64,000 bases of DNA, taken from Dermabacteraceae bacterium TAE3-ERU27 (GTDB lineage: Bacteria; Actinomycetota; Actinomycetes; Actinomycetales; Dermabacteraceae). The stretch lies in assembly GCA_019218415.1 (NCBI GenBank), contig JAHUUL010000003.1, forward strand, positions 1 through 64,000, given 5' to 3'. How positions within the stretch are numbered: the first letter of the stretch is position 1; each line of letters starts with the position of its first letter. Positions 45,543 through 54,324 of this stretch are shown piece after piece. The notes beneath the pieces are model-generated. The model did no database searches. It was not told where the DNA came from and saw only the letters and a program-made list of their open reading frames with translations. Both the position numbers and the translations under genes were made by a program.

Positions 45543-47048
45543 CTACAGCCCCCGCGCTAGCCGATAAAACACCTGGTTCATGCGCATCTCGCGGGTAAAG
45601 CCACGCAGGGTTGTCTCCCTATCGATGACCAGCAGTTCCAGCCGCGCGATCTCGGCCAGCATCTCCCACACCGGCAGGGGCACGTTCGTGCTCAGGCACG
45701 TGTGGTGCGATCCGCCCGCGCTGAGCCAGCACTCGGCGGAGGTGAAAAAGTCCGGTTCGGGTTGCCAGACGGCATGCGCCACCGGCAGGTTGGGCAGGGC
45801 TGCGTCGGGGGCAACCAAACGCACCTGGTTTGCCGTTAGCCGGAACCGATCACGCATGTCGGTCAGGGAAACCACCAGCGCTTCCGGGGTGGGGTCCGCC
45901 GTGAATACCAGGCGCACCGGGTCTTCCCGCTCGCCGATCCCCAGCGGGTGAACCTCCAACAGCGGCTTGCTCTCGGTGAGAGACGGGCAGATCTCCAGCA
46001 TGTGCGCGCCCAGAATCTTTTCCTTGCCGGGGGAGAGCTCGTAGGTGTAGTCCTCCATCAGGGAGGACCCGCCCGGTAGGCCGTACCCCATCACCTTCGC
46101 CGCGCGCACCAGGACGGCCGTCTTCCAGTCGCCCTCGGCGCCGAAGCCGTAGCCGTCGGCCATCAACCTTTGCACGGCCAGGCCGGGAAGCTGGCGTAGC
46201 CCACCCAGGTCCTCAAAGTTAGTGGTGAATGCGCTGAAGCCGCCCGCTTCCAGAAAACGACGCAGACCTATCTCCAGCCTGGCCCCGTAACGCAGGGAAT
46301 CGTGCCGTGCCCCGCCCAGGCGCAGGCACGGCTGCACCTCGTACAGTTCCTCGTAGGTGCGGCACAGTGCGTCTACCTCCGCATCGGATACCGAATCTAC
46401 GGCGGCTACCAGGTCGTTTACGCCCCAGGTGTTGACGCTAACGCCGAGCTCCAGTTCCGCCTCCGTCTTGTCGCCCTCGGTGACGGCAACGTTGCGCATG
46501 TTGTCCCCGAAGCGGGCCACCCGCATAGTTTGCAGCGCCTGCCACCCCGCGGCAGCACGCGCAAAGCGCGCCACCTTTTCTTGCACGTGCGGATGGCTGG
46601 CGTGCCCCACCACCGTGACCCGGCTGCACCCCAGACGGGTTGCCAGATAAGCGAACTCACGGTCGCCGTGGGCCGCCTGGTTCAGATTCATGAAGTCCAT
46701 ATCGATGGTGTCCCAGGGCAGCTCCACCCCGGCCTGAGTGTGCAGGTGCAGCAGCGGTTTGCGTAGCGCGTCCAGGCCCTGAATCCACATCTTGGCGGGG
46801 GAGAAGGTATGCATCCAGGCGATTACCCCTAGGCAGGAATCGTCTGAGTTCGCATCCAGCGCCAGGCGGCGAATCGCCTCCCTGTCCTTGAGCACGGGAA
46901 GCCAAACGATCTCTAGCGGGCACGCCTCCCGCAACAGGTCGGCCACCTCGCGCGACTGCTCGGCGACCTGTCGCAGAGTTTCTTCGCCGTAAAGATCCTG
47001 GCTGCCGGTAACGAAATAGAGTCTTTTCCCGGTGAATGGGTTTTGCAT
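45543..47048 (-). CDS. araA: L-arabinose isomerase
   Basis: 501 residues. [59 protein letters not shown] and [30 protein letters not shown] are the conserved AraA blocks, including the metal ligands Glu and His. It interconverts L-arabinose and L-ribulose. The frame is open upstream, but that part is the shadow of araD; ATG 47048 with GAGGGAGG upstream is the start. Last gene of araB-araD-araA. Confidence 0.97.
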
Positions 47049-47074
47049 CACTGCCTCCCTCTGCTCAGCAGCTA

Positions 47075-47785
47075 TTACTGCCCGTAAACGTTTTGGTAGC
47101 GCGCGTAGAGCGCATCGATCTTGTCTTGCGGCAGGGGAATGATCGGCCCCTGCTGCCGGGCCAGGTGCACCGTGCGGGCTACCTCCTCCACCATCGCGGC
47201 GGCCTTCACCGCTGCGCGGGCGTCGGTGCCGACGGTGAACGGGCCGTGGTTTTGCATCAGCACGGCGGGGGAGCGGGAATCGCGCAGCGTAGCCACGATG
47301 CCGCGCCCGATGGAATCGTCCCCGATCAGGGCGAGGGGGCCGACGGGGACATCGCCGCCGAACTCGTCCGCCATCATCGTCAGGCAGCAGGGAATTGCTT
47401 CCCCGCGCGCCGCCCAGGCGGTGGCGTAGGGCGAATGCGTGTGCACCACCCCGCCCACGTGCGGCATGTGCCGATAGACGTAGGCGTGCGCGGCGGTGTC
47501 GGAACTGGGGGAGAGGCCCCGGCTCGCTGTATCCGCGAGCTTGTTTCCGTACAGATCGCACACCACCATGTTCTCGGGGCGCAGTTCGTCGTAGCTGACT
47601 CCCGAGGGTTTGATGACGAACAGATCCTCCCCGCCGGGCACGCTGACGCGCTGGGAAACGTTCCCGGCGGTCCAGACAACCAGGCCCCAGCGCGGCAGCT
47701 CCGCGTGTAGCCGCGCCACCTGCTCGCGGCAGGCGCTCACCTCCGTGAGCAGGGTGGGTGGGAGATCGGCCAGGTTGAGAGTCAT
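47075..47785 (-). CDS. araD: L-ribulose-5-phosphate 4-epimerase
   Basis: 236 residues, class II aldolase fold. [19 protein letters not shown] and the zinc ligands in [13 protein letters not shown] and QNHGPFTVG are clear. It converts L-ribulose 5-phosphate to D-xylulose 5-phosphate. Overlaps the end of araB by four bases and precedes araA by 26 bases. Confidence 0.96.
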
Positions 47786-49479
47786 TCGTCGGCCCCGGCA
47801 ATCTTGATGAAAGCCTCCCGGCGGAGACGCTTCAGCTTGTGCATGACCTCGCCATCGCCGAAGTAGTCGTGTAAGCGTGCGTACTGCGCATACATATCGT
47901 CGTAGCGGGCAACGTTCTCCGGAATCGGCAGGTAGGCGTTCTTGCGCCTGGCCCCCATTGCGGCCCCGGCGCTAACCACATCCGGGTAGGCTCCCGCAGC
48001 CACCGCCGCGTGGATGGCGGAGCCGAGGGCCGGTCCCTGCTCGCTCACTATGGTCGAGAGCGGCAGGTTCGTTACGTCGGCATAAATCTGCATGAGCAGC
48101 GGGTTCTTTAGCAGACCGCCTGCCACCACCAGCTCGTTCACCGGAATACCGGAATCGCGGAAAGTCTCGATTATCTTGCGTGTACCAAACGCGGTTGCCT
48201 CCAGCAGCGCCCGGTACTGATCTTCGGGACGGGTCTGGAGCGTCTGGCCGACTATCAGCCCGCTCAGCTCGTGATCCACCAGCACGCTGCGGTTACCCGA
48301 GTGCCAATCCAGCGCGATCAGCCCGTGCTGCCCGACCTCCTGGGTCGCGGCGAGGGTGGATAGGTAGGCGTGTGGCGTGATGCCCTTTTCCTCGGCCGCC
48401 TGCGCATACTCGCGCGGGAGACAGTTGTTAATGAACCAGCCGAAGATGTCTCCCACCCCGGACTGCCCGGCCTCGTAGCCCCAGTAGCCCTTGGTGATGC
48501 CGCCGTAGACCACGCCACAGATTCCGGGCGCAGCGGCGAGTTTCTTGCTGTTCATCACGTGGCAGGTAGAAGTGCCCATGATCGCCACCATTTGGCCTGG
48601 GCGGCAGGCGTCTGCCGCGGGTGCGGTGACGTGCGCATCCACGTTGCCGACTGACACCGGGATGCCCTCCGGCAGTCCCGTTAAAGAGGCGGCCATATCG
48701 CTCAGATAGCCGGCGCATTCGCCCAACTGGCCGATCTTTGCGGCCAGCTTTTCCTTAACAAAGCCGGAGAAGGCGGGATTGAGCGCGGCAAGAAAATCTT
48801 CGCTCGGGTATTCCCCGTCCTGCCGCATTCCCTTGTATCCAGCACTGCACGCGTTACGGACGTATTTCCCAGTGAGCTGCCAGACGATCCAGTCGGCCGC
48901 TTCCACCCAGTGCACCGTGGCCGCGTAAATCTCCGGGTCTTCCTCCAGTAGTTGCAGGCCCTTCGCGAATTCCCATTCGCTGGAGATCAGGCCGCCGTAG
49001 CGGGGCAGCCAGGATTCTCCTCGCTCTCGCGCGAGCGCGTTTATTCTGTCGGCCTGTGGCTGCGCGGCGTGGTGTTTCCAGAGCTTTGCGTAGGCGTGCG
49101 GGCGGTTGCGGTACTTCTCCAGCGCGCACAGGGGGAGTCCGTTCTCTCCCGTGGGGATCATGGTGCAGGCCGTGAAATCGGTGCCGACGGCGATGACGTC
49201 GTCTGGCTTCACCCCGTGCACGCGCCGGGCGTTTTCTAGTGCGGTGGGTACCGCGTGGCGTAGTACCGCGAGGTAGTCAGCCGGGTTCTGTAGTGCCCAG
49301 TCGGGTGGGAGCTTCTGGCCGTCTCCGGCGGTGAGATGGGTGTCCATTACCGCGTGCGGATAGTCGTAACTGGCGCTCGCCAGCACGGTGCCATCCGCGA
49401 CGCGAACCACTACCGCGCGCCCCGAAAGGGTCCCGTAATCTATGCCGACGGTGACTGTGTTTTGGGAGATCCTGTGCAT
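47782..49479 (-). CDS. araB: Ribulokinase
   Basis: 565 residues, FGGY kinase. [17 protein letters not shown] starts the fold, [16 protein letters not shown] and [16 protein letters not shown] are the AraB hallmarks, and MGTSTCHVM and [24 protein letters not shown] form the C-terminal ATP site. It phosphorylates L-ribulose. GGAGG lies six bases before the ATG. First gene of the arabinose operon, divergent from a LacI regulator. Confidence 0.97.
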
Positions 49480-49557
49480 TGCGTCCTCCGAATTATGCGA
49501 TCGCGCCTATGCGTTCGTTCACAGTGCCTTCATTTTTGGAGAAAAATGGTTTAGTTA

Positions 49558-49577
49558 GAATGTAAACGTTCACATTC
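49558..49577. promoter_or_regulatory. LacI-type operator between araB and its regulator
   Basis: GAATGTAAACGTTCACATTC is a 20-bp palindrome with one mismatched pair, in an AT-rich stretch between the divergent starts (49479 and 49614). The AACGTT centre is typical of LacI-family sites. Confidence 0.8.
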
Positions 49578-49613
49578 GGGATGGTCAATGTTTCTTGTGG
49601 GTAAGCTGAGCTA

Positions 49614-50606
49614 ATGAGTTCGCCGACACGCCCTCCCTCGATGAATGACGTTGCGCGCGCTGTTGGGGTTTCGTACCAGACCGTCTCGCGCGTGCTCAAC
49701 GAACCGCACCTGGTTAAAGAGTCCACCAGGGAGAAGGTGGAGCAGGCGATACGCGAGTTGGGTTATCGCCCTAACTCGGTGGCCCGCGCGCTTAAGACCG
49801 CGCGCACGGATCTGATCGGGGTTATCGCCCCGATCACCGGCCACTTCGGTCCCACCAAGGCGGTTTGCGCCCTGGAGCGCGCTGCGCGCGAGGCGGGCAA
49901 GGCCGTGGTCCTGGTGCAGGTGGATCCGGGGGTTCCGGGTGCGCCGGAGGATGCCTGGGAGCGCTTGCTGCGCCACGGGGTGGACGGCGCGGTAGTGGTT
50001 TCCCCCTGCCTTAATTTTGTGCGCGCGCTGCGTCCGCCCGTGCACATGATGCCGATTGCCGTGGCGGGCGGCGAGGGTGGCGACTGGCCTGCCTACGCCA
50101 CCGATCAGCGCGGGGCGGCATACGAACTGGTGCAACACCTGGTGTCGCGAGGCGCCAAGCGGGTGGCGCACGTGGCGGGCCCCGTCGGCTGGTGGGATGC
50201 GCGAGAGCGCGAACGCGGATGGCGTGAGGCGCTCGCTGACGCGGGCTTGCCCGAAGGGGCTTTGGCGCGCGGCGACTGGTCGGCGGAGAGCGGAGAGGAA
50301 TCCGGAAGGGAGCTTCTGGCTAACGCTGAATTCGATGCTGTTTTCGTGGCCAACGATCAGATGGCGCTGGGGGTAATTCGCGCCCTTGTGGATGGCGGCA
50401 AGTCGGTCCCGGCCGATGTTTTAGTGGCGGGCTTTGACGACATTCCCGCATCGAGCGTTACCGTGCCGCGACTGACCACGGCCGGTCAGAATTTCGCGGC
50501 GGTGGCCGATGCTTGCATCGCGGCGGTTAGCGCTACGCGCGCGCTTTCGCCCGGATTGGAACTTCTCCCCGCGGCCATAATTCTGCGGGAATCCAGCGAG
50601 GGGTAA
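49614..50606 (+). CDS. LacI-family regulator of the arabinose operon
   Basis: 330 residues: MNDVARAVGVSYQTVSRVLNEP with the hinge YRPNSVARALKT, then an effector domain (TDQRGAAYELVQHLVSRGAKRVAHVAGP, VFVANDQMALGVIRALV, AGFDDIPASSVTVPRLTT). Divergent from araB across a palindromic operator, it most likely represses araBDA and itself. It differs from the B. subtilis AraR, which has a GntR DNA-binding domain. Confidence 0.93.
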   Translation: MSSPTRPPSMNDVARAVGVSYQTVSRVLNEPHLVKESTREKVEQAIRELGYRPNSVARALKTARTDLIGVIAPITGHFGPTKAVCALERAAREAGKAVVLVQVDPGVPGAPEDAWERLLRHGVDGAVVVSPCLNFVRALRPPVHMMPIAVAGGEGGDWPAYATDQRGAAYELVQHLVSRGAKRVAHVAGPVGWWDARERERGWREALADAGLPEGALARGDWSAESGEESGRELLANAEFDAVFVANDQMALGVIRALVDGGKSVPADVLVAGFDDIPASSVTVPRLTTAGQNFAAVADACIAAVSATRALSPGLELLPAAIILRESSEG

Positions 50607-50840: not shown

Positions 50841-52940
50841 ATGACCACTCAGGCCACGGATAACGCGGCACAGGTTGCATGGGAAGGCTTTGCAGAAGGC
50901 CCCTGGCGCGAAGAGATTGACGTTCGCGACTTCATCCAGCGCAACTACACCCCTTACGAAGGCGACGCGTCCTTCCTGGCGGGCCCGACCGAGAAGACCC
51001 TCAAGGTTTGGGACACGCTGGAAAAGGAATACCTCAGCGAAGAGCGCGCCCGTCGCGTTTACGACGTAGACACCAAGACCCCGGCTGACATCGACGCTTT
51101 CGGCCCCGGTTACATCTGCAAGGAAGACGACGTTATCGTCGGCCTGCAGACCGACGTTCCCCTCAAGCGCGCCATGATGCCGAACGGCGGCTGGCGAATG
51201 GTGGAGACCGCCATCAAGGAAGCGGGCAAGGAGCCCGATCCCGAGGTCAAGAAGATCTTCACCCAGTACCGCAAGACCCACAACGACGCGGTCTTTGATA
51301 TCTACACCCCCCGCATCCGCGCGGCGCGTTCCTCGCACATCATTACCGGCCTGCCGGACGCCTACGGCCGTGGCCGCATTATTGGCGACTACCGCCGCGT
51401 TGCCCTCTACGGCGTTGACTTCCTCATCGCCGAGAAGATGAAGGACAAGGACAAGGTCGCCGACAAGCCCTTCAGCGAGCACTGGGCACGCTACCGCGAA
51501 GAGCACAGCGAGCAGATCAAGGCCCTCAAGAAGCTGATCACCCTCGGTGACCTCTACGGCTTCGATCTGCGCCGCCCCGCCGCCACCGCGCAGGAAGCCG
51601 TGCAGTGGACCTACATGGCCTACCTGGCATCGGTTAAGTCGCAGGACGGCGCCGCAATGTCGATCGGTCGCCTCTCCGGCTTCCTCGACATTTACTTCGA
51701 GCGTGACCTCAAGGCCGGCAAGATCACCGAGTCTGACGCTCAGGAAATGATCGACGCGCTGGTCATGAAGCTGCGCATCGTGCGCTTCCTGCGCACCATC
51801 GACTACGACCAGATCTTCTCCGGTGACCCCTACTGGGCAACCTGGTCGGATGCAGGCTTCAGTGAGGACGGCCGTTCGCTGGTCACCAAGACCTCGTTCC
51901 GTCTGCTGCAGACCCTGCGTAACCTGGGCCCGGCCCCGGAACCGAACATCACCATCTTCTGGGATCCGGCACTGCCCGAGGGGTACAAGGAGTTCTGCTC
52001 CGCAATCTCGATCGAAACCTCCTCGATCCAGTACGAATCCGATGAGCAGATTCGCGAGCACTGGGGCGACGACGCGGCCATCGCCTGCTGCGTATCCCCG
52101 ATGAAGATTGGCAAGCAGATGCAGTTCTTCGGCGCCCGCGTGAACGCCGCCAAGACCCTGCTCTACGCCATGAACGGTGGCCGTGACGAGATGAGCGGCA
52201 AGCTCATCGTTCCCGATCACGAGGGCGTGCAGGGCGATGGCCCGCTCGACTTCGACGAGGTCTGGGAAAAGTACGAAGCCATGCTGGACTGGGTTGTGGG
52301 CACCTACGTTGAGGCCCTCAACATCATCCACTACTGCCACGACCGCTACGCCTACGAGTCGATCGAAATGGCGCTGCACGACTCCGAGATCATCCGCACC
52401 ATGGGCTGCGGCATCGCGGGTCTGTCGATCGTGGCCGACTCCCTGTCGGCAATCAAGTACGCCAAGGTGACCCCGATCCGCGACGAGACCGGCCTCATCG
52501 TTGACTACAAGACCGAGGGTGACTTCCCGGTTTACGGCAACGACGACGACCGCGCCGACGACATCGCGGCGACCGTTGTGCACACCGTGATGAGCAAGAT
52601 CAAGGCCATCCCGATGTACCGCGACGCGATCCCGACCCAGTCGGTGCTGACCATCACCTCGAACGTGGTGTACGGCAAGGCCACCGGTTCGTTCCCGTCC
52701 GGCCACAAGAAGGGCACCCCCTTCGCTCCCGGTGCAAACCCGGAGAACGGCGCGGACAACCACGGCATGGTTGCCTCGATGCTGAGCGTCGGCAAGCTCG
52801 ACTACAACGACGCGCTGGACGGCATCTCGCTGACCAACACGATCACCCCGTCGGGCCTGGGCCGTAACAAGGAAGAGCAGGTGCGCAACCTGGTCGGCAT
52901 CCTCGACTCCGGCTTCATCATCGACGATCCGGAACTGTAA
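50841..52940 (+). CDS. pflB: Pyruvate formate-lyase, large part without the glycyl radical domain
   Basis: 699 residues. The protein follows PflB from the N-terminus (AWEGFAEGPWREEIDVRDFIQRNYTPYEGD) through the catalytic pair Cys416-Cys417 in IACCVSPMKIGKQMQFFG. It ends at ...NLVGILDSGFIIDDPEL, just before the point where E. coli PflB (about 760 residues) continues into the glycyl radical domain. No RVSGYAV motif is present in it. That domain is encoded separately by the next gene. The frame is intact and there is no remnant in the 70-base spacer, so this is a true split enzyme. It converts pyruvate and CoA to acetyl-CoA and formate without oxygen. ATG 50841; the frame is open from 50790. Confidence 0.95.
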   Translation: MTTQATDNAAQVAWEGFAEGPWREEIDVRDFIQRNYTPYEGDASFLAGPTEKTLKVWDTLEKEYLSEERARRVYDVDTKTPADIDAFGPGYICKEDDVIVGLQTDVPLKRAMMPNGGWRMVETAIKEAGKEPDPEVKKIFTQYRKTHNDAVFDIYTPRIRAARSSHIITGLPDAYGRGRIIGDYRRVALYGVDFLIAEKMKDKDKVADKPFSEHWARYREEHSEQIKALKKLITLGDLYGFDLRRPAATAQEAVQWTYMAYLASVKSQDGAAMSIGRLSGFLDIYFERDLKAGKITESDAQEMIDALVMKLRIVRFLRTIDYDQIFSGDPYWATWSDAGFSEDGRSLVTKTSFRLLQTLRNLGPAPEPNITIFWDPALPEGYKEFCSAISIETSSIQYESDEQIREHWGDDAAIACCVSPMKIGKQMQFFGARVNAAKTLLYAMNGGRDEMSGKLIVPDHEGVQGDGPLDFDEVWEKYEAMLDWVVGTYVEALNIIHYCHDRYAYESIEMALHDSEIIRTMGCGIAGLSIVADSLSAIKYAKVTPIRDETGLIVDYKTEGDFPVYGNDDDRADDIAATVVHTVMSKIKAIPMYRDAIPTQSVLTITSNVVYGKATGSFPSGHKKGTPFAPGANPENGADNHGMVASMLSVGKLDYNDALDGISLTNTITPSGLGRNKEEQVRNLVGILDSGFIIDDPEL

Positions 52941-53009
52941 GTCTTACCGGGGAATCCCCACCCCGACCCAATTTGCGGGCCTTGCGGCCCCACCCCAAAG
53001 GAGAAAAAT

Positions 53010-53261
53010 ATGTCCATCAAATCGTTCGACGAGCGCCTGGCCGACATGAAGGCGAAGCGTTCCGCCACCAACAGCCAGTCCGGTCTGTACCACGCGAACA
53101 TCAACGTTCTCGAGCAGAAGACCCTCGAAGATGCCATGGAGCACCCGGAGAAGTACCCGAACCTGACCGTTCGCGTTTCCGGCTACGCCGTCAACTTCGT
53201 GAAGCTGACCCGCGAGCAGCAGCTCGACGTTCTGCACCGCACCTTCCACCAGAACGCCTGA
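53010..53261 (+). CDS. grcA: Stand-alone glycyl radical subunit of pyruvate formate-lyase (GrcA-like)
   Basis: 83 residues. Residues 25-83 align with the last 60 residues of E. coli Pfl[21 protein letters not shown], then [11 protein letters not shown] with radical Gly58, and [18 protein letters not shown]. In E. coli, GrcA/YfiD is a spare part for oxygen-damaged PflB; here the adjacent PflB has no such domain, so this protein must supply the radical for catalysis. AAAGGAG precedes the ATG. The activase gene follows. Confidence 0.95.
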
Positions 53262-53275
53262 TCTGAACTCTTAAC

Positions 53276-53316
53276 CCGCGGGCCCGAGACGTGCACTGCG
53301 CGGATCGGGCCCGCGG
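53276..53316. terminator. Hairpin between the glycyl radical gene and pflA
   Basis: CCGCGGGCCCGA pairs with TCGGGCCCGCGG (12-bp stem, 17-base loop). No T run follows. It may be a partial terminator or an mRNA-stabilising 3' structure that sets the ratio of lyase to activase. Confidence 0.6.
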
Positions 53317-53421: not shown

Positions 53422-54324
53422 ATGTCTGCCCCCACCGCCGCCCCGTCCCACGACGGTATCGCCGGCGTCTACAAGCCACAGCCGGTCGACGTCCCCACCC
53501 CGCGAGTACGCGGCGCGGCCGCCGGTATCGGCGGAGCCGCGGAGGACCTCACTCCGCTGGAGCGGGCGGAACGTTTCCGGCAGATCCGCGAAGGTACCCT
53601 CGGATCCATCCACTCCTGGGAACTCGTTACCGCCGTAGACGGTCCCGGCACCCGCATGACCATGTTCATGTCGGGCTGCCCGCTACGCTGCGTCTACTGC
53701 CACAACCCCGATACCTTCCAGATGAAGGACGGCACCATGCAGTCCCTCAGCGACATTGTGGATCGTATCCGTCGGTACCGCAAAATTTTCCGTGCCACCA
53801 AGGGTGGGGTCACGATTTCCGGCGGCGAACCGCTGTTCCAGACCCCCTTCGTGCGCAACGTGCTGCGCGCCTGCAAGGAAATGGGCGTGCATACCTGCGT
53901 CGATACCTCGGGGTTCCTCGGCGCGCGCGCCGATGACGCGATGCTGGACGACGTAGACCTGTTCCTGCTCGACGTGAAGTCGGGCATCCCCGAGATCTAC
54001 AAAAAGGTAACCGAACGCGACCTCGAACCGACCATCGCGTTCGGCGACCGCCTTGCCGCGCGTGGCAACAAGATCTGGATTCGCTTCGTGCTGGTGCCTG
54101 GCTGGACAGACTCGGTAGAAAACGTCGAGGCGGTGGCCGACATCGTGGCCCGCTGGAAGAACGTGGTGGAGCGCGTGGAGGTGCTGCCGTTCCACAACAT
54201 GGGCCAGGATAAGTGGGAGAACCTGGGGCTTGATTACAAGCTAGTCGGCCTCACTCCGCCCGATACCGACACGGTGAAGCGAGTGCGCGAACAGTTCCGC
54301 TCCCGTGGCCTGACGGTCTTCTAA
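53422..54324 (+). CDS. pflA: Pyruvate formate-lyase activating enzyme (radical SAM)
   Basis: 300 residues. The [4Fe-4S] motif CPLRCVYC with Cys86, Cys90 and Cys93, the GGVTISGGEPLFQ SAM-binding segment and FLLDVKSGIPEIYKKVT are the PflA pattern. It abstracts the H from the radical glycine. Compared with E. coli PflA (Cys30), there is an extra ~56-residue N-terminal part (pro/ala-rich, then LTPLERAERFRQIREG). ATG 53422 has AAGGA upstream; the frame opens at 53389. With the lyase split, this enzyme must act on the small GrcA-like protein or the complex. Confidence 0.94.
   Translation: MSAPTAAPSHDGIAGVYKPQPVDVPTPRVRGAAAGIGGAAEDLTPLERAERFRQIREGTLGSIHSWELVTAVDGPGTRMTMFMSGCPLRCVYCHNPDTFQMKDGTMQSLSDIVDRIRRYRKIFRATKGGVTISGGEPLFQTPFVRNVLRACKEMGVHTCVDTSGFLGARADDAMLDDVDLFLLDVKSGIPEIYKKVTERDLEPTIAFGDRLAARGNKIWIRFVLVPGWTDSVENVEAVADIVARWKNVVERVEVLPFHNMGQDKWENLGLDYKLVGLTPPDTDTVKRVREQFRSRGLTVF

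Follow-up and report, generated by a model that had tools for sequence, protein, structure and literature searches.

A probable two-protein pyruvate formate-lyase with a separately encoded glycyl radical loop in Dermabacteraceae and related actinobacteria

We analyzed a DNA stretch of 64,000 nucleotides from Dermabacteraceae bacterium TAE3-ERU27, hereafter the window, in which pflB and grcA2 very probably encode an intact pyruvate formate-lyase (PFL) composed of two polypeptides, with Gly58 of the small protein docked at the Cys416/Cys417 pair of the large one (Table 1). The split arrangement is real, common in related bacteria and already partly recognized in databases. In the enzyme that we propose, PflB would supply the barrel, the substrate and CoA site and the cysteine pair, and GrcA2 would dock into PflB to add the missing last strand, the Gly58 radical loop and the C-terminal helix. 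The activase PflA would install the radical on Gly58 of docked GrcA2, from where it would move to Cys417/Cys416 for catalysis, as in a one-chain PFL. The N-terminal GrcA2 segment, T[FY][DE]ERLA.MKA.R, probably replaces the covalent tether and touches PflB or PflA. Upon cleavage by oxygen at Gly58, GrcA2 alone would be lost and a fresh copy would replace it.

Table 1. Features of the pflB–grcA2–pflA locus, in window coordinates.
Feature	Position	Strand	Remarks
pflB, PFL catalytic subunit without glycyl radical loop	50841..52940	+	699 aa; stop TAA 52938-52940
Cys416 and Cys417 codons, catalytic cysteine pair (E. coli Cys418/419)	52086..52091	+	From sequence and alignment to E. coli PFL
pflB–grcA2 gap, 69 nt	52941..53009	+	Ribosome binding site AAAGGAG at 52997-53003; no sign of linker translation
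grcA2, glycyl radical subunit, 83 aa	53010..53261	+	NCBIfam NF008341 GrcA2; Pfam Gly_radical 66-106
grcA2 codons 5-17, N-terminal segment, predicted helix	53022..53060	+	Arg9, Met13, Arg17 invariant or nearly so
Gly58 codon, predicted radical site (E. coli Gly734, GrcA Gly102)	53181..53183	+	Alignment to 1cm5, 6owr; invariant 80/80
G+C-rich inverted repeat between grcA2 and pflA	53276..53316	.	20-nt arms, 85% complementary
pflA, radical SAM activase	53422..54324	+	TIGR02493 311.9 bits (cut-off 231.75), residues 63-294

PflB terminates with ...NLVGILDSGFIIDDPEL and a TAA stop, upstream of the glycyl radical loop. The Pfam Gly_radical model is divided between the two genes, i.e., positions 1–65 are found at the end of PflB, together with a Pfam PFL-like match, and positions 66–106 in grcA2, whose product carries the RVSGYAV loop with Gly58. 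The grcA2 ATG is preceded by its ribosome binding site at a distance of 6 bases. A sequence-only reading of the window had described a PflB with the cysteine pair that ends before the radical domain, followed by a gene for this domain (83 residues) with a ribosome binding site of its own, and these observations are confirmed; its interpretation is partly supported, as set out below. That reading did not mention that pflB and grcA2 share one frame around a single TAA. Against the PFL model TIGR01255, PflB matched profile positions 1–678 of 744 with 996.3 bits; this is barely above the cut-off of 994.2, as expected because the C-terminal end is missing. PflB has the adjacent Cys-Cys pair of the active site, the PflA activase is encoded nearby, and the RVSGYA loop is found in the next gene and not on the same chain. 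As both genes together hold the radical loop, we classed the system as a two-chain PFL and not as a one-chain PflB.

The small protein is a member of the NCBIfam family GrcA2 (164.6 bits, cut-off 145) and scored 84.3 bits with the GrcA/YfiD model TIGR04365, for which the cut-off is 170. It is 100% identical in Dermabacteraceae bacterium TAE3-ERU5, the nearest named relative among the matches listed. The sequence-only reading had advised a check for another full-length PflB in the host genome. In this genome (2.0 Mb, 98% complete), PF02901 is matched once and PF01228 twice, in every case within the pflB/grcA2 pair, and no second PFL or PF01228 radical domain was found elsewhere in it.

The GrcA2 model gave matches in 118 of the 248 genomes that we searched in the order, above the curated cut-off in 40 of them, and each of these 40 had exactly one match; fused PFLs in other genomes of the order also match the model, below the cut-off. 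A second, fused PFL radical domain was thus seen with the GrcA2 model in none of the 40 GrcA2 genomes, in part of which the truncated pflB itself was read. With 77 genomes carrying a fused PFL, about 12 overlaps with GrcA2 would be expected if both were independent, and none was observed, in a statistic that ignores relatedness. Four genomes (G037, G038, G044 and G054) seemed to have a second radical enzyme, but these enzymes were set aside as PFL candidates on account of their motifs: all four have TCGYLG near the end, those of G037 and G044 also MTNCC, and we take them to resemble the anaerobic ribonucleotide reductase NrdD.

The title of the NCBIfam family, "autonomous glycyl radical cofactor GrcA2", would make the small protein a spare part like GrcA/YfiD that repairs oxygen-cut full-length PFL, and GrcA2 residues 24–81 indeed resemble E. 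coli GrcA. However, a spare part of this kind would be expected in a genome that also encodes a full-length PFL for it to mend, and there is none here: no other PF02901 or PF01228 match occurs in this genome, and no fused PFL radical domain in any of the 40 GrcA2 genomes of the order. Also, the adjoining PflB is not a damage product, as the gene itself ends there. We consider a repair role distinctly improbable, and for this lineage the lack of a fused PFL alongside GrcA2 contradicts it. With no fused radical domain beside GrcA2 in 40 of 40 genomes, the small protein looks like an obligate subunit and not like a repair part, and, as judged from gene content, it appears to take the place of full-length PFL in this lineage rather than to accompany it. 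This suggests that the "autonomous cofactor" naming in actinobacterial genomes is a misreading and that GrcA2 is a required subunit of the sole PFL. The obligate two-protein enzyme proposed in the sequence-only reading is well supported by comparison.

The pair might alternatively be a two-protein glycyl radical enzyme that acts mainly on another 2-oxoacid, e.g., 2-oxobutyrate. TdcE-type enzymes resemble PFL in fold and in much of their sequence, and the PFL equivalog match lies barely above its cut-off (996.3 versus 994.2 bits), although this is expected from the missing end. On the other hand, the best-scoring solved chain for the window PflB is E. coli PFL, pflB is adjacent to pflA, and it is the only PFL-type gene in the genome. 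A main activity on another 2-oxoacid has just a small chance of being correct.

Since pflB and grcA2 lie in the same frame with a lone TAA between them, read-through of the TAA, or a frameshift, into a single fused chain needed testing. We compared the locus with relatives in two sets, a first survey of 58 relatives and a scan of named genomes, from which the best 80 loci of at least 561 confirmed relatives were taken. In the first survey, PF01228 was present in 26 of 58 relatives, i.e., in 22 split loci, three one-chain PFLs and one fragment at a contig end. Twenty of the 22 split loci came from the family of the window, where PF01228 was found in 20 of 36 sampled genomes, each time solely as two halves. 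The search of relatives for the same split that the sequence-only reading had called for returned it in 79 of the best 80 loci (of 561), a figure that is no prevalence, as these loci are the best-scoring relatives of a split-type query. Among the matches listed, the titles of these records name Corynebacterium, Schaalia, Actinomyces, Trueperella, Mobiluncus, Varibaculum, Rothia, Propionibacterium, Tessaracoccus, Gulosibacter, Brachybacterium, Dermabacter and Helcobacillus. In 71 of the 79 split loci, a pflA pattern follows downstream.

Programmed read-through would call for a conserved frame and stop context, and neither was found. The gap between pflB and the small gene measures 4–378 nt across the 79 split loci, with lengths that hinge on the automatic choice of start codons and frames that do not; gap lengths modulo 3 were 0, 1 and 2 in 30, 30 and 19 loci, respectively. 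In the first survey the corresponding counts were 4, 6 and 8 for 18 of the 22 split loci, the start pattern being absent in four. TAA, TAG and TGA are each in use as pflB stops across split relatives. Between the window and a sister genome, the 69-nt gap differs by two frame-breaking indels, one deletion and one insertion of 1 nt each, and the folding of the gap RNA resembles that of shuffled sequences (z −0.48). Moreover, grcA2 has its own ribosome binding site. In favor of read-through there is, besides the common frame, a locus of Corynebacterium sp. Marseille-P4321 (L056) that reads on in frame without a stop. From the mixed gap frames, the gap indels and the shuffle-like RNA, we conclude that a read-through product is very unlikely and that two separate polypeptides are probably made.

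In L056 (1684-4092), PflB, the former gap and GrcA2 form one frame within the split clade, through a natural stop-loss fusion unless the draft sequence is in error.

A sequencing error that hides a fused frame, which the sequence-only reading had considered, is excluded by the conservation of the split among relatives, and together with a decaying pseudogene, for which the short pflB alone could be taken as it resembles a nonsense mutant, it has a practically negligible chance given the same split in 79 of the best 80 loci (of 561) and 22 first-survey loci, purifying selection on pflB (48 synonymous and 2 nonsynonymous differences from the sister genome in 700 codons) and a grcA2 free of amino-acid changes (1 synonymous, 0 nonsynonymous in 84 codons).

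How the two chains might fit together was assessed by alignment and modeling. The window PflB can be aligned to E. coli PFL up to residue 693, and GrcA2 residues 24–82 align to E. coli residues 700–758. Among 80 GrcA2 sequences (best 80 of 561), Gly58 is invariant, as are Met13 and Arg17, and Arg9 is found in 79. GrcA2 positions 1–25 are otherwise more variable than positions 26–83, with a mean entropy of 1.31 compared with 0.39. Hydrophobic moments of the predicted N-terminal helix, calculated in five versions, were no higher than those of shuffled sequences (76–95% of shuffles reached at least the same value), and we hence do not claim amphipathicity.

For an AlphaFold2 model we joined the pair by reading the TAA as Tyr and used an alignment of 49 rows, 17 of which were one-chain PFL genes, or pieces of such genes, taken from IMG/VR contigs. 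The model reached a pLDDT of 79.3 and a pTM of 0.83, the artificial linker (residues 696–724) being below pLDDT 50. It has a helix at residues 729–742, i.e., GrcA2 6–19, within the N-terminal segment, and over the model range 7–806 its superposition on E. coli PFL (1mzo) covers 737 of 756 residues at an rmsd of 1.9, in line with the two-protein complex of the sequence-only reading, albeit with fused relatives in the alignment. When the IMG/VR one-chain rows were absent, in an earlier alignment of 51 rows from split relatives, L056 and three read-through sequences, the model was poor, with a pLDDT of 59 and a pTM of 0.55. As one-chain PFLs were part of the alignment and AlphaFold2 knows E. coli PFL, the docking is not independent evidence, and the joined model shows compatibility with the PFL fold, not independent proof of it.

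A two-polypeptide PFL is chemically feasible, judging from two E. coli studies (PMC8683613, PMC12338860), which report a competent engineered split and a PflB variant rescued by GrcA. According to these studies, PFL 1–695 (tPFL) together with YfiD 61–127 is active, with a kcat per radical of 204/s compared with 105/s for PFL, and activation of YfiD is impossible without PFL (PMC8683613); E. coli PflB-G734A forms formate solely when GrcA is present (PMC12338860). This engineered cut lies at nearly the same place as the natural break between PflB and GrcA2. Radical uptake in the study of the engineered split was 2.7 μM for tPFL:truncYfiD, 0.5 for tPFL:YfiD, 15.9 for cPFL:YfiD and 17.2 for PFL, and binding of tPFL to YfiD is given there as not detectable (PMC8683613). 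The low uptake of the engineered split means that a split at this place is not automatically a good one (PMC8683613). An active natural pair would allow the radical carrier of a glycyl radical enzyme to be taken out, exchanged and titrated, for which an arrangement had to be engineered in E. coli.

It is plausible, by analogy, that the split limits oxygen damage to a replaceable piece of 83 residues; the idea of an exchangeable subunit is a fair inference from the E. coli work (PMC8683613). If this held, respiring bacteria could keep a radical fermentation enzyme cheaply. The 36 genomes sampled from the window's family, its own among them, all have COX1. However, the link between split PFL and a respiring lifestyle is not clean, as COX1 is absent in two split-PFL genomes (G037, G053) and present in a fused-PFL genome (G044).

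A further natural split is found in Collinsella, where a PflB without the glycyl radical domain is encoded beside a standalone radical protein annotated as GrcA3 (NF038360). Seven further genomes of the phylum have the Collinsella layout and cluster with Collinsella. The Collinsella-type core ends with ...ALGK plus an extra tail, and its small protein already bears a helix like DNLV..LDAY, which places the break about 15–20 residues earlier (around E. coli residue 680). The extra tail of these PflB proteins (L146–L151, L154, L033) is Cys-rich in most (CDCC, CACEAD), the exception being L033.

The first core tree has 54 rows, drawn from 58 loci plus the window after L090, L161, L171 and L172 (no end match) and L173 (no PFL pattern) had been omitted; for the second, 14 more loci were read and 13 added, with L205 left out (no end match). 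In the core tree, the eight Collinsella-type rows form their own clade with an SH-aLRT of 100, apart from the GrcA2-type forms. An AU test rejected a grouping of the two split types together with L056 and two f4 one-chain rows (p 0.003); AU-test groups were named after the tree had been viewed, and both trees are quick searches. The Collinsella-type split is apparently independent of the GrcA2-type split.

One-chain forms also occur inside the GrcA2-type clade. The placement of a group of three rows (f4) is unsure; a second group of five one-chain rows (f9 and f13; L198–L202) branches from within the split forms of the quick tree, and this position suggests a re-fusion. Their linker AGM(G/T)EG precedes LFHANINV. 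However, an AU test did not reject a single clade of all split forms plus L056 (p 0.46), and the LD–HANINV linker of L198–L202 is 8 residues long, a length shared by eight of the nine ordinary one-chain forms in which it was measured, so that a retained old one-chain state is an equally good reading. The one-chain joins of L198–L202 read AGMGEGLFHANINV or AGMTEGLFHANINV.

More broadly, one may view actinobacterial PFL as an enzyme with a radical cartridge, in which the part destroyed by oxygen was made a replaceable subunit twice independently (GrcA2 and GrcA3 types, with different breakpoints), acquired a new Arg9–Met13–Arg17 docking segment in the first case, and was rejoined at least once (the Corynebacterium stop-loss and possibly the nested one-chain forms). 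We put this history forward tentatively, and as a whole it is rather doubtful.

Three records stood out. The pfl locus of L065, from a record titled Sanguibacter keddieii 250_SKED, clusters with Schaalia georgiae (SH-aLRT 99), and this assembly is probably mislabelled or contaminated. Also, two Staphylococcus phage records (OR849994.1, OR845000.1) contain a segment with 71.7% identity to the radical domain, which may be DNA of bacterial origin.

Compared with one-chain PflB (E. coli 1h16/1mzo; TIGR01255), the window system shares the core fold, the cysteine pair, the radical loop sequence and the pflA neighbor, but carries the radical loop and C-terminal helix on a separate 83-residue protein with an extra N-terminal segment. 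With GrcA/YfiD (TIGR04365, 6owr) it has the standalone glycyl radical domain in common, whereas the N-terminal part of the window protein is shorter and unmatched (model positions before 58) and there is no full-length PFL for it to repair. Within GrcA2 (NF008341), of which the window protein is a member, the family name implies repair but the genomes point to an obligate subunit. GrcA3 with PflB in Collinsella and its kin (NF038360) is likewise a natural split PFL of adjacent genes, and differs in its separate place in the tree, its earlier break and its core tail.

The sequence-only reading had left open whether the split was described before. We found no paper on a naturally split PFL among the matches listed from the open-licence literature. 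However, GrcA2 and GrcA3 are already named in NCBIfam, the Collinsella annotation has pflB and grcA3 side by side, and structures of two PFL cores with no radical domain detected have been solved. These PDB chains, 38la_A and 38lb_A ("Formate acetyltransferase"), are PFL cores that align to the window PflB only up to LG(K/R), and neither was matched when GrcA2 (E up to 0.001) or GrcA3 (E up to 10) served as the query. Most likely, 38lb is a natural split-type core, as it continues into the Collinsella-type tail (its last 40 residues are not covered). The other chain, 38la, has its end at LGKED and may be such a core or an engineered truncation. Split PFLs have reportedly been discussed by structural groups.

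Further observations concern the surroundings of the pair. Directly upstream of pflB, the plus strand carries a gene for a LacI-type regulator, and araA, araB and araD-like genes for L-arabinose use lie on the minus strand, all within window positions 45543-50606 and named by eye. The inverted repeat between grcA2 and pflA lacks a T run, and the hairpin could be an attenuator, stabilize the mRNA or lower the dose of the activase. PflA has about 60 residues ahead of the family core (window 53422-53610). This N-terminal part contains HSWELVTAVDGPG, which was found in 21 of 24 split loci; in the other three the chosen start lay inside it.
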